Made by a program: the position numbers and the translations under genes
Shown here: one piece after another, positions 37,270 to 45,617 of the stretch
Position numbering within the stretch: position 1 is the stretch's first letter
How the letters are laid out: each line of letters opens with the position of its first letter
NCBI RefSeq assembly: GCF_000426465.1
Contig: NZ_AUFK01000009.1
Location: 806,001-870,000, forward strand
Source of the DNA: Epilithonimonas caeni DSM 17710
GTDB lineage: Bacteria > Bacteroidota > Bacteroidia > Flavobacteriales > Weeksellaceae
Direction of reading: 5' to 3'
DNA: 64,000 nt
Notes under the pieces: generated by a model
Seen by the model: the letters and a program-made list of their open reading frames with translations, nothing else
Told to the model about the DNA's origin: nothing
Databases searched by the model: none

Positions 37270-37539
37270 TTACTTTCTGATTCCTAGTTCAGCGATGATT
37301 GCTCTATATCTGTTGATATCTTTTTTCTTCAAATAATCTAAAAGAGCTTTTCTTTTACCTACTAACTTTACAAGAGATCTTTCTGTGTTGAAGTCTTTGT
37401 GATTAGCTTTCAAGTGCTGAGTCAAGTGGTTGATTCTAAAAGTGAATAGAGCAACTTGTCCTTCAGCTGTTCCTGTGTCTTGTGCAGATTTTCCGTGTTT
37501 TGCGAAGATTTCCGCTTTCTTTTCTGATGTTAAATACAT
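37270..37539 (-). CDS. rpsO: 30S ribosomal protein S15
   Basis: 89 residues, the standard length. DTGTAEGQVALFTFRINHLTQHLKANHKD and the RSLVKLVGKRKALLDYLKK block are S15 signatures. S15 binds 16S rRNA helices 20-22 early in 30S assembly. The 207 bp between its start and the thrC stop contain a nested inverted repeat (37623-37742). Confidence 0.97.
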   Translation of the reverse strand: MYLTSEKKAEIFAKHGKSAQDTGTAEGQVALFTFRINHLTQHLKANHKDFNTERSLVKLVGKRKALLDYLKKKDINRYRAIIAELGIRK

Positions 37540-37622
37540 TCCAATATTATTTAATGATTATTATGTAAATTCGGATGCAAAGATAAGATTTATTTCCGGA
37601 TTAGAAACTGTAAATCAATATA

Positions 37623-37746: not shown

Positions 37747-39042
37747 TCACTTCTCCTCTATCAGATAGTTTTTCACAGCTTCAAAATCAACCGGGAACTC
37801 CACAGATTTCTTTTCTTTTTTATTAAATGCTTCCAATTTTTCAGGAATGGTAACCTCCTCTTTCAAAACATTTTCTACCACTTCTACAAACTTTGCCGGA
37901 TGAGCTGTTTCCAACAAAACACCAACAAAATCATCATTCGATTTTTCAGAATATTTTTCCAATCCCAAATAAGCAACCGCTCCGTGCGGGTCAAGCGTAT
38001 AACCAAATTCTTTTCTAACTTCTCGCATTGCACTTTTCGTTTCTTCATCGGAGAAAGAATAAGACTCAATGTCTTTTTTGAATTCTGAAACATCATTATT
38101 AAATAAGTTTCCCATCCTTTCGAAATTACTCGGATTCCCCACATCCATTGCATTGCTAATCGTTTGTTTTGATGGTTTCGCTTCGTAATTACCAGTTTCC
38201 AGAAACTTCGGAACAACATCATTTTCATTGGTCGAAGCTACAAAATGATGAACTGGCAATCCCATTTTCTTAGCAAAAAGTCCTGCCGTTAAGTTTCCAA
38301 AATTTCCACTTGGAACCGAGAAAACAATCGGTTTTTCTAATTTTTGCAATTGCGCAAAAGCCCAGAAATAATAGTACGATTGTGGAATCAATCTGGCAAT
38401 ATTAATGCTGTTTGCTGATGTCAATGTAAATTTCTGATTCAGTTCTTCATCAGACAGAATCTGTTTTGCCAAGGCCTGGCAATCATCAAAAGTGCCATCG
38501 ATTTCCAAAGCTTTGATATTTCCACCCCAGGTTGTCAATTGTTTTTCCTGTAATGGACTTACTTTTCCTTTCGGATAAAGAATATAAACCTCGATTCCCT
38601 GCACTCCGAAAAATCCCGATGCAACCGCACTTCCCGTATCTCCCGAAGTTGCAGCAATCACTTTCATCGGTTTTCCTTCGGAAAAATAAGACATCATTCT
38701 TGCCATAAATCTTGCTCCGACATCTTTGAAAGCCATCGTCGGACCGTGAAATAATTCCAGTGAATAGATATTGTCTGAGATTTTAACCGCAGGAATTTCG
38801 AAGTTCAGAACCTCATCGATGATTTCTTTGAGATTATCATCCGAAATGGATTCGCCAAGAAATTCTTTCGCTACTCGAAAACCGATTTCTTGCAAACTTA
38901 GGTTTGGTAGATTTTCAAAAAACTCAGAATCCAATTGCGGAATATACTCCGGCATAAATAATCCGCCGTCGTCTGCCAAACCTTTAAGGATTGCTGTTTT
39001 TATATTGGTTTCTTCTTGTTGTCTTGTTGATATGTATTTCAT
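37747..39042 (-). CDS. thrC: threonine synthase
   Basis: 431 residues. PLP-binding Lys106 is in GPTMAFKDVGARFM and the phosphate-binding loop is SVPSGNFGNLTAG. It converts O-phosphohomoserine to threonine, the last step of the pathway whose other enzymes are encoded upstream (thrB and thrA) on the same strand. Gap to thrB is 306 bp, which carries a Chryseobacterium-type interspersed repeat, so thrC may have partly separate expression. Confidence 0.95.
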   Translation of the reverse strand: MKYISTRQQEETNIKTAILKGLADDGGLFMPEYIPQLDSEFFENLPNLSLQEIGFRVAKEFLGESISDDNLKEIIDEVLNFEIPAVKISDNIYSLELFHGPTMAFKDVGARFMARMMSYFSEGKPMKVIAATSGDTGSAVASGFFGVQGIEVYILYPKGKVSPLQEKQLTTWGGNIKALEIDGTFDDCQALAKQILSDEELNQKFTLTSANSINIARLIPQSYYYFWAFAQLQKLEKPIVFSVPSGNFGNLTAGLFAKKMGLPVHHFVASTNENDVVPKFLETGNYEAKPSKQTISNAMDVGNPSNFERMGNLFNNDVSEFKKDIESYSFSDEETKSAMREVRKEFGYTLDPHGAVAYLGLEKYSEKSNDDFVGVLLETAHPAKFVEVVENVLKEEVTIPEKLEAFNKKEKKSVEFPVDFEAVKNYLIEEK

Positions 39043-39348
39043 TTTTTCTTTCTTTTACTTAGAACTGTTTTGAACGCAAAGTGCGCAAAGATTTTTTTAA
39101 TTTTATTGAAAACATTTTAAGGTTCGCAAAGGCGCTTACGCTCAGCGAAGACTAAATTTTAAAGTTATTTTGTTATTATGGTAGAAATCTAAAATTCGCC
39201 GTAAAGATTCTGCGGAATAACACAATGGGATTGAAGATAAATCTTCAACTTTGCGAAGCTGCAGCCCGACTTGAGCGGAAATCCTTTTTGTTTTTTTGCT
39301 AAAAAATAAAAAGATTGGGAGCGGAAGGCGGATTAAGCTGCCCAAATT
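39043..39348. other. 306-bp gap between thrC and thrB
   Basis: The only open frames are short and unsupported. The left part has a palindromic-looking AACGCAAAGTGCGCAAAG segment; the right part (about 39250-39345) is the first copy of the interspersed repeat. Confidence 0.7.
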
Positions 39349-39350
39349 TT
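39250..39350. repeat. interspersed repeat copy A
   Basis: It contains TGAGCGGAAATCCTTTTTG, then AAAAAGATTGGGAGCGGAAGG, then GGCGGATTAAGCTGCCCAA. The copy at 54790-54892 shares these three blocks with small differences. Confidence 0.65.
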
Positions 39351-40278
39351 AATCGATAACTCTCGCTCCTTCATCATTAAATTTCGTTACGAATGCTTCG
39401 CTTTCTATGTTTTTTTGATTAAGTAATTCTTTGATTTTGAATGAAATTTCTTCCGCAGTTTTTTTCTTTTCACACAATACAAAAACCGACGGACCGGAAC
39501 CCGAAATCCCAAAACCAATTGCACCGTTGTCCAAAGCCATCTGTTTCATCTCGTAAAAATACGGAATCAGCATCGCGCGAACCGGCTCTATAATAACATC
39601 TTCCATACTTCGACTAACCAAATCCAAATTGCCGGTACAAAATCCGGCGACCAATCCGGCAACATTTCCCCATTGCTGAACCGCAGATCTGAGACTGATT
39701 CTTTCCTTGATGATTTTCCTCGCCTCGCCAGTCGGAACATCGACGTGCGGATGAACGGAAACTACTGACAAATCTTTTGGATAAGGCAGTTTGAGCGCAT
39801 CCAAAGGTTCGTAACTTCTCACTAAAACCAAACCGCCCAAAAGTGCCGGCGCCACATTATCTGCATGTGCATTACCACAGGCAATTCTTTCACCTTCCAT
39901 TGCGAGAGGTAACAATTCTTCCTTGGAAAACGGTTTTCCCATCAATTCATTGATCGCTACCAAAGCCGCAACACTGCTTGCCGCACTGGAACCCATTCCG
40001 CTGTTGAGAGGCATTTTTTTATAGAGTTCGATATCAATTCCCTGGTTGGAATTGATTTTTTCCAGAAACAATCGGATAACGTGCGAAACAACATTTTTAT
40101 TCGGGTCTTTAGGAAGTTTTCCGTTATCACCTTCTATTTTTGTGATAATGATTTGGTTGTAATCATTTTTTCTCAGGATGATTTCATCGCCCGGTTCTTC
40201 TATCGCAAAACCGAGAATATCGTAACCACAAACCACGTTGGCGACTGTTGCGGGAGCAAAAACTTTTATAGAATCCAT
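39349..40278 (-). CDS. thrB: homoserine kinase
   Basis: 309 residues, GHMP kinase. The ATP-binding motif PLNSGMGSSAAS is at 90-101, and the C-terminal GFGISGSGPSVF segment is motif 3. It phosphorylates homoserine for thrC. Between thrA and thrC on the minus strand; 100 bp upstream is thrA. Confidence 0.95.
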   Translation of the reverse strand: MDSIKVFAPATVANVVCGYDILGFAIEEPGDEIILRKNDYNQIIITKIEGDNGKLPKDPNKNVVSHVIRLFLEKINSNQGIDIELYKKMPLNSGMGSSAASSVAALVAINELMGKPFSKEELLPLAMEGERIACGNAHADNVAPALLGGLVLVRSYEPLDALKLPYPKDLSVVSVHPHVDVPTGEARKIIKERISLRSAVQQWGNVAGLVAGFCTGNLDLVSRSMEDVIIEPVRAMLIPYFYEMKQMALDNGAIGFGISGSGPSVFVLCEKKKTAEEISFKIKELLNQKNIESEAFVTKFNDEGARVID

Positions 40279-40378: not shown

Positions 40379-42823
40379 TTATTGTGCTGTAACTCTTACC
40401 AAATCTGCAAAAACGCCTGCAGCTGTCACTTCTGCACCTGCGCCGGGACCTTTTACGACCAACGGTGTATTCCTATATCTGGAAGTCGTGAACGAAATGA
40501 TATTATCGCTGCCCGACAATCCGAAAAACGGATGATTGGCATCAACAATCTGAACTTCGATGTTGATTTTTCCCTCTTCCAGAACTCCGATCAATCTCAG
40601 TTTTCTACCCGAATTTTCAGCTTCGTTTTTGAAAGATGAAAAGTAAGGTTCGTGCTTTTCCAATTCTTTGTAGAATGCAGGAATTGTTTCGGCTTTAAGG
40701 CAAGCTTCCGGAAGAAAATCTTTGATATCGACATCTGACATTTCCAATGGGAGTCCGATTTCCCTTCCGAGAATCAGCATTTTTCTGGAGAAATCCATTC
40801 CGTTCAAATCGTCTCTTGGGTCTGGTTCTGTATAACCTAACTCCTGCGCAGTTCTTACAACCTCCGCAAAAGTCTTATCACCCACATAATTATTGAAAAT
40901 ATAGGAAATTGTTCCTGACAAAATAGCTTCGATTTTCAGGATTTCGTCACCGGAAATCCAAAGGTCATTTAAGGTTTTTATAATTGGAAGTCCTGCTCCA
41001 ACATTGGTCTCGTATAAGAAACTCACATTATTCTTTTTTGCCAGTCTTTTGAACTTACTGTACTGCTCGTAAGACGATGAATTTCCTTTTTTGTTACAAG
41101 TCACAATAGAAATATTATTGTTAAATAACAACGGGTATTCTGCAACAACATCTTCACTGGAAGTATTGTCTACAAAAACCAAATTAGGTAAATTTTTACT
41201 TGAAATAGATTTTATAAATTCTTTCAAATCTGATTTTTGTAAATTATTATTAAAGTTATTATTTAAATCAAAATCGGATTCAGGATTATCGAAAATTTTC
41301 ATTTCCCGACTGTTGGTAATTCCCACGATATTGATTTTAATCTGATGGTTTTCTTCCAGATTTTGCTGTTCTCTTTCCAATTGTCGGAACAATTCTTTCC
41401 CGATATTTCCTGTTCCAGCAAACATCACATTGAACGTTTTTACGGGAGAAAGCAGCAGCGAATCGTGAACGACATTAAGCGCTTTTGAGAGTTCGGCTCT
41501 TTCAATCACTGCAGAAATATTGAGTTCGGAGGAACCTTGAGCAATCGCAATGATATTGATTCCATTCTTACCCAAAGCACTGAAAAACTTACCGCTGATC
41601 CCTCTCGTTTTTTTCATATTCTCGCCAACGACAGAAATAATACTTAGCTCATTATCGAACTGCGGTTCATCAATTTTGTTGGAATTAATTTCGAAATCAA
41701 ATTCTTCATAGATTGCTTTTTTCGCTTTTTTCTCATCATCGAAAGAAACCACAAATGAAATACTGTGTTCCGAGCTTGCCTGCGTAATCAGTATAACATT
41801 GACTTCATATCTCGCCAAAGCATTGAACAATCTTCCGCTGAAACCTTTCATCCCAATCATCCCGTTTCCGGTAATATTGATGAGGCAAGTTTTCTCGATG
41901 GAAACTATTCCTTTGATAAGACCTTTGGAAACTTCAGATCTTTGATGAATCAGAGTTCCTGAATTTTCCGGTTTGAAAGTATTTTTGATATAGATCGGGA
42001 TTTGACTTTCAATGGCAGGAATCATTGTTGGCGGATAAATGACTTTCGCTCCGAAATACGACATTTCCATAGCTTCCTGATAGCTGAGTTCTGACTGAGA
42101 AAACGCATTTTTCACCAATCTTGGATCAGCTGTTAAAAAACCATCAACATCTGTCCAAATCTGGATTTCATCAGCTTTTAAACCTGAGCCGAGAATTGCA
42201 GCAGTGTAATCCGAACCTCCTCTGCCCAAAGTTGTTGTATCATCATTTTTATCTTTGGCGATAAAACCTGTAACGACATAAATTTGATTTTCTGGTTTCC
42301 AGTTTTTGAGATTTATATTGGTCGTTTTGTAATCAACGTTGGCATTGCAAAAATGCGAATCCGTCACAATCAATTCTCTAGAATCCTGGAAAACCACTGG
42401 AAAATCTTCAGATCGTAGAAAAGCCGAAACAATTTTGCCCGACATCTGTTCTCCGTAAGAAAGCAGCCTATCTTTGATTCTGTCTGATAATTCTCCCAGA
42501 TTTTTAACACTGAATAAAACATCCTCAATCTCATTAAAACTAACTTTTACCATCATCAATAAGGGATTCTGAGCTGTTCTTGGCAATAACTCTGAAATAA
42601 TCTGATAATGTTTTTCTTCTGCAGATTTCAGGATTTCAGAAAAATCGTTTTGTTTCAAAGCTTCTTCTGAGGCTGATAAAAGCGCATTCGTGATTCCTGA
42701 CAAAGCGGAACAAACAACAATTAATGGCTTGTCTTTATTAAACTCTTTTTCAATGATTGATTTTACATTTCTCAATGCTTCTACACTTCCAACCGAAGTT
42801 CCCCCGAATTTTAAAATTTTCAT
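40379..42823 (-). CDS. thrA: bifunctional aspartate kinase/homoserine dehydrogenase
   Basis: 814 residues. The aspartokinase catalytic domain (KILKFGGTSVGS at residue 2; lysine-sensitive type block TLGRGGSDYTA near 198) is followed by two ACT regulatory domains (about residues 310-450), and the homoserine dehydrogenase domain begins near residue 460 with the NAD-binding VMFAGTGNIGKELF and ends with VKGPGAGAEVTA. It catalyses the first and third steps of the threonine/homoserine branch. Expression is likely controlled by the attenuator upstream (leader 42991-43062, terminator 42936-42965). Confidence 0.95.
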   Translation of the reverse strand: MKILKFGGTSVGSVEALRNVKSIIEKEFNKDKPLIVVCSALSGITNALLSASEEALKQNDFSEILKSAEEKHYQIISELLPRTAQNPLLMMVKVSFNEIEDVLFSVKNLGELSDRIKDRLLSYGEQMSGKIVSAFLRSEDFPVVFQDSRELIVTDSHFCNANVDYKTTNINLKNWKPENQIYVVTGFIAKDKNDDTTTLGRGGSDYTAAILGSGLKADEIQIWTDVDGFLTADPRLVKNAFSQSELSYQEAMEMSYFGAKVIYPPTMIPAIESQIPIYIKNTFKPENSGTLIHQRSEVSKGLIKGIVSIEKTCLINITGNGMIGMKGFSGRLFNALARYEVNVILITQASSEHSISFVVSFDDEKKAKKAIYEEFDFEINSNKIDEPQFDNELSIISVVGENMKKTRGISGKFFSALGKNGINIIAIAQGSSELNISAVIERAELSKALNVVHDSLLLSPVKTFNVMFAGTGNIGKELFRQLEREQQNLEENHQIKINIVGITNSREMKIFDNPESDFDLNNNFNNNLQKSDLKEFIKSISSKNLPNLVFVDNTSSEDVVAEYPLLFNNNISIVTCNKKGNSSSYEQYSKFKRLAKKNNVSFLYETNVGAGLPIIKTLNDLWISGDEILKIEAILSGTISYIFNNYVGDKTFAEVVRTAQELGYTEPDPRDDLNGMDFSRKMLILGREIGLPLEMSDVDIKDFLPEACLKAETIPAFYKELEKHEPYFSSFKNEAENSGRKLRLIGVLEEGKINIEVQIVDANHPFFGLSGSDNIISFTTSRYRNTPLVVKGPGAGAEVTAAGVFADLVRVTAQ

Positions 42824-42840
42824 TTTAGTTTTTTTGTATC

Positions 42841-42903
42841 GCTCCTACGGAGCTCTGTTAAACTGTCAATTATCTTACTACACACATTTCGCTCCTACGG
42901 AGC
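42841..42903. repeat. paired GCTCC-TAC-GGAGC hairpins between thr leader and thrA
   Basis: Two identical 13-bp elements GCTCCTACGGAGC (42841-42853 and 42891-42903), 50 bp apart, the second preceded by ACATTTC. They lie between the attenuator terminator and the thrA start, so they are in the transcribed leader. Confidence 0.85.
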
Positions 42904-42935
42904 TCCTGTTAATTCTTTATCATCATTCACAAATA

Positions 42936-42965
42936 AAAAGCCTTTCTGAATTCAGAAAGGCTTTT
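42936..42965 (-). terminator. thr attenuator terminator
   Basis: On the minus strand a perfect 30-bp palindrome with arms AAAAGCCTTTCTG / CAGAAAGGCTTTT and a TTTATTT tail. It lies 25 bp after the leader-peptide stop and 112 bp before the thrA start. Confidence 0.9.
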
Positions 42966-42990
42966 GTTAATTATCTAATTTTTCACAATA

Positions 42991-43062
42991 TCACAAACAC
43001 ACCTTTCTGCAGCTACTAATTGTAGTTGTTATAGAAATCGTTGTTGTGGTTGTAAAATTCAT
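42991..43062 (-). CDS. thrL: thr operon leader peptide
   Basis: 23 residues: MNFTTTTTISITTTISSCRK then VCL, stop TGA at 42993-42991. Eight Thr and three Ile codons fall in residues 4-15 (Thr at 4-8 and 12-14). It is too short for automated calling. The position, followed by a terminator and then thrA, identifies it as an attenuator leader peptide; the amino acids are those that matter for ThrA feedback and the threonine/isoleucine branch. Confidence 0.85.
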   Translation of the reverse strand: MNFTTTTTISITTTISSCRKVCL

Positions 43063-43083
43063 TATCGTTTTATAAATCTGTTA

Positions 43084-43114
43084 CGAAAGTATGAAAACAT
43101 TTTTCATCTGCAAA
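43084..43114 (-). promoter_or_regulatory. promoter of the thr leader/operon
   Basis: On the minus strand TTTG (43114-43111), 19-bp spacer, TACTTTCG (43091-43084), one mismatch to the flavobacterial TAnnTTTG. It places the start of transcription near 43077, about 15 nt before the leader ATG. Confidence 0.65.
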
Positions 43115-45275: not shown

Positions 45276-45617
45276 ATGAATACCGAGAACACAAAGGCGC
45301 AAATGCGTAAAGGAATTCTGGAATTCTGTATTTTGAGTCTTATCCAACAACGCGAAATGTATGTTTCCGACCTGATAGAATCTCTCAAAAAAGGAAAACT
45401 GGATGTAGTGGAAGGAACTCTTTATCCTCTCCTTACTAGATTGAAAAACGGCGAATTCCTCGCTTACAGATGGGAAGAATCTACAAGCGGACCGCCAAGA
45501 AAGTATTATCAGATCACTGAAAAAGGAAGTCTCTTCTTAGCAGAATTACAAACAACCTGGCAGGAACTGACAGATTCTGTAAACCAAATCACATCAAACT
45601 CTCACTCTCAAAACTAA
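45276..45617 (+). CDS. PadR-family transcriptional regulator
   Basis: 113 residues. The winged helix (MRKGILEFCILSLIQQREMY, GTLYPLLTRLKNGEFL, SGPPRKYYQITEKG) matches the short PadR-like regulators that usually precede a PspC or other membrane-protein gene. Here a PspC-domain protein starts 4 bp later. It is expected to repress its own operon. Confidence 0.92.
   Translation: MNTENTKAQMRKGILEFCILSLIQQREMYVSDLIESLKKGKLDVVEGTLYPLLTRLKNGEFLAYRWEESTSGPPRKYYQITEKGSLFLAELQTTWQELTDSVNQITSNSHSQN

Follow-up and report, generated by a model that had tools for sequence, protein, structure and literature searches.

A threonine-codon leader with the features of a transcription attenuator upstream of thrABC in Epilithonimonas caeni and its relatives

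The thrABC operon of Epilithonimonas caeni DSM 17710 is preceded by a short open reading frame rich in threonine codons, by an intrinsic terminator and by a leader segment able to pair with the 5' arm of that terminator. We conclude, with a probability of roughly 0.9, that these elements form a classical ribosome-mediated transcription attenuator controlling thrABC. They lie on the minus strand of a 64,000-nucleotide stretch of contig NZ_AUFK01000009.1 (positions 806,001 to 870,000), which was analysed as a whole and is called the window here. The frame, the terminator, the alternative pairing, their spacing and their conservation can be read from the sequence and from the comparison with relatives, and coordinates are collected in table 1. 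In E. coli, the thr operon attenuator comprises thrL, a short frame of Thr and Ile codons, and antiterminator and terminator structures that are mutually exclusive. The thr leader described here is a further example of this known type of attenuation, in a group where little of it has been described, and it provides a well-supported Bacteroidota thr attenuator with clear elements to mutate.

Table 1. Elements of the thr leader region and genes of the operon (positions in the window).
Feature	Position	Strand	Remarks
TTTG, upstream promoter box	43111..43114	-	direct reading; 19 nt ahead of the -7-like box
TACTTTCG, -7-like box	43084..43091	-	one mismatch (seventh position) to TAnnTTTG
Leader ORF, 23 codons, MNFTTTTTISITTTISSCRKVCL	42991..43062	-	
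Control codons 4-15 (8 Thr, 3 Ile, 1 Ser), within segment 1	43018..43053	-	
Segment 1:2 (protector) hairpin, predicted; Thr codons pair with the segment 2 region	42981..43057	-	minimum-energy fold
Segment 2, GCAGAAAGGT	43001..43010	-	core CAGAAAGG at 43002-43009, codons 18-21
Segment 3, CCTTTCTG	42953..42960	-	part of the 5' arm of the terminator and of the 3' arm of the antiterminator
Intrinsic terminator hairpin	42936..42965	-	13-bp stem, 4-nt loop; -17.4 kcal/mol
U tract TTTTTATTT, overlapping the end of the 3' arm	42931..42939	-	direct reading
Two copies of CGCTCCTACGGAGCTC, dispersed repeat, between terminator and thrA	42840..42905 (copies at 42840, 42890)	.	
thrA, bifunctional aspartate kinase/homoserine dehydrogenase I	40379..42823	-	NF006959 1010 bits, cut-off 726
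thrB, homoserine kinase	39349..40278	-	NF002288 398 bits, TIGR00191 253 bits, both above cut-off
thrC, threonine synthase	37747..39042	-	TIGR00260 320 bits, cut-off 167

Direct reading of the sequence bore out nearly all that an earlier note on this DNA had described: its coordinates, counts and element positions on the minus strand, the 23-codon frame with eight Thr and three Ile codons in residues 4-15, the TTTG and TACTTTCG boxes 19 nt apart, and the 112 nt between the end of the hairpin and the thrA ATG. Leader codons 18-21 are, as the note had claimed, identical to the terminator 3' arm and can pair with its 5' arm. The hairpin stands where the note had placed it, 25 nt beyond the leader stop, but what had been called a 30-bp structure is a terminator of 30 nt in all. 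When the 318-nt upstream region was shuffled 5000 times with its dinucleotides preserved, no frame of 8-45 residues attained eight Thr in 12 residues (the best had six), and the leader is the top Thr scorer among frames of that length in the 64-kb window, the runner-up having five. The CGCTCCTACGGAGCTC repeat is probably not part of the switch: a 317-nt query returned at least 17 further matches in the genome, at least 15 of them within the repeat part (40 of 103 candidates scored). Around the operon, a Flavo-1 RNA (RF01705, 46.3 bits) lies between thrB and thrC at 39259-39338 on the plus strand, antisense to the operon, and an S15-Flavobacteria ribosomal leader (RF03161) at 37537-37585 on the minus strand, immediately downstream of thrC.

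Fold prediction for the 146 nt from leader to terminator gave -34.9 kcal/mol (z = -4.9), a stability equalled by none of 200 shuffles. Segment 2 and the 5' arm of the terminator were calculated to pair at -12.4 kcal/mol, and the antiterminator with its extension UUUGU/ACAAA to fold at -16.8 kcal/mol; a shuffled segment 2 matched the real pairing in 2 and in 1 of 1000 trials in two runs. When a ribosome stalled at Thr14 was simulated by masking, with the terminator 3' arm unmade, the window RNA folded as the antiterminator (-16.8 kcal/mol), and with the full terminator present the best fold had -19.6 kcal/mol. Masking a ribosome on the stop codon left the terminator alone (-18.0 kcal/mol). With no ribosome, segments 1 and 2 paired alongside the terminator, and the pre-terminator leader alone folded at -16.9 kcal/mol. 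The two forms are nearly balanced in these models, and such a balance, combined with the order of synthesis, is a requirement of the classical mechanism. The 1:2 hairpin is a fold prediction; across 22 loci of the genus, segment 2 was predicted to pair with bases upstream of it at mean values of 0.34 to 0.88.

From this arrangement we infer that the leader is translated, that ribosomes stall within it, that transcription terminates at the hairpin and that the system responds to threonine. If charged tRNA-Thr were plentiful, the ribosome would reach the leader stop and cover segment 2; segments 3 and 4 would then pair and transcription would end ahead of thrA. If charged tRNA-Thr were scarce, the ribosome would stall at the Thr codons and leave segment 2 free to pair with the emerging segment 3, so that the terminator would be pre-empted and thrABC transcribed. 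A leader left untranslated would allow segments 1 and 2 to pair and the terminator to form. As far as sequence can tell, thrABC is probably switched on only when threonine is short.

Conservation in relatives had been named by the earlier note as a check on its reading. The genus of the window (g1, Epilithonimonas-like to judge from named relatives) was sampled with 23 genomes, 22 of which contain full-length ThrA (23 copies), genome G020 giving partial matches only; one copy had too little upstream sequence, and 22 regions were examined. All 22 carry a Thr-rich mini-ORF, a terminator and the alternative pairing. The leaders have 8-10 Thr and 0-4 Ile codons each: the Thr half of the Thr/Ile signal proposed earlier is constant, but the Ile half is not, and four leaders (L018, L023, L030 and L031) have no Ile at all. 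In every one of the 22, segment 2 begins 8-14 nt after the last Thr codon upstream of it and lies 18-19 nt from the end of the stop codon. Given the size of the ribosome footprint, these distances suit the mechanism: a stalled ribosome would leave segment 2 exposed, and one at the stop would cover it. The terminator follows the stop after 17-25 nt and is separated from thrA by 18-29 nt in 14 regions and by 81-260 nt in the other eight, the window included, whose longer gap includes the CGCTCCTACGGAGCTC repeat. The arms are nearly invariant within the genus and no covariation is visible there, so that evidence of covariation was drawn from between lineages.

A search of 197 genomes of the family for ThrA, with a limit of E = 1e-150, gave matches in 90 of them (91 copies). 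Leaving out G057 and also L011, which has only 96 nt of contig ahead of thrA, 89 upstream regions were sorted: 34 have the same design as the window (class A; 22 in g1, six in g21, five in g23 and one in g29), 42 have a second design (class B) and 13 are without a recognisable Thr leader. In the three class A genera other than g1 (12 regions), leader, terminator and pairing recur with partly different sequences. At the level of the class, 32 of 159 genomes, the window's own among them, gave a match; G267, G302 and second copies in G260 and G296 yielded no locus. Of the 29 new loci, six (L126, L128, L134, L137, L141 and L143) went unscored as the script found no start, and the other 23 were sorted by eye into five class A, five class B, five variants of class B and eight without a Thr leader. 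In this wider class, L120-L124 are Thr/Ile leaders with terminators, L120 having only three Thr. The 17 class A loci outside the genus in the terminator comparison were picked for having a terminator.

Where the terminator arms differ between lineages, segment 2 differs accordingly. Segment 2 and terminator arm read CAGAAAGG/CCTTTCTG in the window, TAGAGAGG/CCTCTCTA in L032 (g29) and TTAGAAGA/TCTTCTAA in L065, one locus of g21; TAGAGAGG occurs in both segment 2 and the terminator of L032, and TTAGAAGA likewise in L065. In a 12-by-12 test on representatives that we chose from 39 class A loci, segment 2 paired with its own arm at a mean of -10.5 kcal/mol, compared with -7.5 kcal/mol for the arms of the others. 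This fit to the own arm, reached by 0 of 100,000 permutations among the 12 chosen loci, provides between lineages the compensatory change in the antiterminator that the earlier note had proposed to look for. The own arm ranked first in four rows, second in four and third to sixth in four; that it came first in just four of 12 is partly because related lineages share arms. Pairing was weaker in the g21 loci (-7.5 to -9.8 kcal/mol). Shuffles at single loci were supportive for L009, L032, L033, L037, L065 and L070 (2 to 33 of 1000) and weak for L074, L120, L121, L122, L123 and L124, where 86, 55, 125, 221, 78 and 380 of 1000, respectively, were at least as good. In L032 the leader, MKNNTELMTSIIYMIITVR, contains Met codons among those for Thr and Ile, a hint from sequence that Met may be a further input.

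Several other readings of the region were weighed. The hairpin could be the mere 3' terminator of the AraC-family gene that lies upstream on the same strand (43951-43142), with the Thr-rich frame incidental and the thrA promoter further on. A same-strand AraC-family gene is indeed found upstream in nine of 21 genus loci, the window among them. At the other 12, however, this gene matches neither of the two nearest upstream frames of at least 90 codons, and the leader and terminator are kept; 11 of these 12, by eye, have instead an opposite-strand frame whose start resembles the gene at 45276-45617 of the window or the upstream part of that gene. The check took the two nearest frames at each of the 21 loci, L060 and loci above L037 being left out. 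A transcription start beyond the terminator, which the earlier note had named as evidence against its reading, was looked for as well. The 18-29 nt between terminator and thrA in 14 of 22 regions (the window not among them) leave no room for a later promoter there. The F. psychrophilum transcriptome paper gives TAnnTTTG as the sigmaA -7 consensus (PMC9723704). On the coding strand of the window from 43200 to 42801 the exact motif is absent, and with its seventh position freed the sole match is TACTTTCG at 43091, ahead of the leader. We rejected the AraC-terminator explanation, which we consider very improbable, on the neighbour check, and a start after the terminator on the spacing and the box search.

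An effect of the leader mainly on translation or mRNA stability, through access to thrA or through Rho or RNase action and with the hairpin secondary, appears improbable, if a little less so. The thrA leaders of sister genera have a Thr run without a strong intrinsic terminator, which suggests that Thr-run leaders may not need one; here, however, the terminator is strong and has a U tract behind it, the leader segment matches the terminator arm from lineage to lineage, and a terminator-thrA spacing that varies from 18 to 260 nt within the genus does not fit a translational switch. Control by a T-box or a metabolite riboswitch in place of a translated leader has hardly any probability. Firmicutes often use T-boxes for such operons, but neither of the two Rfam hits that pass the threshold in the window is a T-box or a riboswitch, the 14 matches at E up to 5 between 42700 and 43250 include no T-box, and what is conserved is a reading frame containing Thr codons. 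Within the thr leader itself, Rfam gave nothing over threshold and only chance-level matches below it. Attenuation by a translating ribosome is the reading that we retain.

The leader resembles enterobacterial thrL (RF00506, Thr_leader) in its short Thr-rich frame with some Ile, its exclusive hairpins and the thrABC genes downstream. It differs in scoring 19.6 bits against a gathering score of 55 (E = 0.34), below the family model, and in that Ile codons are optional (0-4 in the genus). Within the same phylum, the 2021 F. psychrophilum transcriptome paper reports 'strong clues' to attenuation by leader peptides ahead of amino-acid biosynthesis operons, and it names structured 5' elements at hisG and pheA whose conservation extends to other genera (PMC9723704). 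The likeness to our case lies in leader peptides at amino-acid operons; the words 'thrA' and 'threonine' are absent from the main text of that paper. Short frames reminiscent of leader peptides are mentioned for B. thetaiotaomicron in PMC7366714. A 2010 paper stated that, until it added its own cases from Firmicutes, such systems had been known only from Proteobacteria and Actinobacteria, with ermC as the exception (PMC2965389), and an attenuation survey of 2010 is cited in PMC4833913. A literature search covering titles and abstract openings, with subscription papers mostly beyond its reach, revealed none on a thrA leader in this group. Vitreschak et al. in 2004 reportedly predicted candidate attenuators, with Bacteroidetes/Chlorobi included and threonine operons among the targets.

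The thr attenuator seems to belong to a set of such leaders in this genome. Upstream of hisG (L157) we found the leader MKMTTQFMHHHHHFLAQTGRS and a terminator; the 5' arm of the latter pairs with CAGACGG in the leader, which 11 of 1000 shuffles did equally well. Of the 23 genus genomes, 19 yielded hisG, and a His leader with a terminator precedes it in all 19. The trpE-like gene (PF04715; L159) has the leader MKLMNNNNWWWLSNSLSGLEGLSVF, a terminator and a pairing segment equalled by 22 of 1000 shuffles. Upstream of ilvD, an ilvE-like frame (L158) follows an Ile/Val leader, MNNSIIIIVISVIIGFRW, and a terminator; its alternative pairing was no better than chance (403 of 1000 shuffles). This suggests a single genome using translated leaders at its thr, his, trp and perhaps ilv operons. 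Bacteria of this group are said to lack Shine-Dalgarno sequences (PMC9723704).

The comparison also exposed a second thrA leader, one without a strong terminator. The class B regions of the family (L075-L081, L083-L111 and L113-L118; for example L078:150-335, minus strand) have a mostly longer leader, often of about 33 residues (MNFLRNISDIS...TTTTTTP). Its Thr run abuts a hairpin, ACCCC-n-GGGGU. The stop codon falls within the loop of this hairpin or else beyond it, as it does in L075 and L081. Downstream of the stop hairpin come nATTTTCACATAT and then a third hairpin, and a conserved stretch reads AUUUUCACAUAU / ATTTTCACATAT. Between the class B leader stop and thrA we found no strong terminator, the weak candidates reaching -8.1 to -8.7 kcal/mol (L097, L114, L117 and L118). 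Rfam 15 at E up to 1, run on eight class B loci, gave no family that matches the element; weak matches in L084 and L094 lay outside it. L082 has no recognisable Thr leader, yet it keeps the downstream part of the class B design.

Covariation in class B was examined in 25 of its 42 sequences. For the hairpin within the reading frame, three of six pairs showed changes on both sides, its columns having been chosen as the best stem on the same alignment, which favours it, and the third hairpin showed them in two of six; the stop-codon hairpin was invariant in the 25 sequences and hence uninformative on covariation. Overall, 93.6% of cells could pair, compared with 90.0% in shuffles and 32-59% when slid. 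Pairs with both-side changes numbered five against 2.8 in shuffles (15 of 500 as high), and further pair types 14 against 12.3 (51 of 500). In other families, judged by eye, L129, L130, L138, L144 and L145 are related to class B, and L125, L127 and L146-L148 are variants. A strict class B pattern matched one of 395 Bacteroidia genomes, once and upstream of thrA, a count that is not a measure of distribution.

In a ThrA tree of 47 rows (11 near-identical rows dropped, no g20 row, and several long branches that make deep placement unsure), the 21 class A rows fell into one group with support 100/100, and the 10 rows of class B or its variants lay outside. Two leaderless rows, L019 and L038, were placed within that class A group; the 14 remaining rows, unscored or leaderless, lay outside it. 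ThrA identity to that of the window is 45-48% for the class B loci of the family and at least 52% for class A loci. We tentatively suggest, at slightly less than even odds, that thrA in Bacteroidia is under two unrelated ribosome-sensing leaders, the classical attenuator marking one ThrA clade and the terminator-less class B occurring outside it, in g20, g10, g15, g19 and g26 (called Chryseobacterium-like by sequence identity) and in other families. Class B might then act as a transcription pause or a Rho-dependent switch read by the leader ribosome.

Two of the leaderless cases deserve mention. In genus g16, all nine thrA regions examined (L038, L061, L062, L064, L066-L069 and L073) are without a recognisable Thr leader, and the ThrA of L038 stands within the group whose other leaders are class A. 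No leader or attenuator was found in the thrA region of L019 (G169, genus g26), whose ThrA is 95% identical to that of the window and is placed in the tree, with modest support, among the window's genus. From these sequences, L019 is likely the product of a transfer that left the switch behind.
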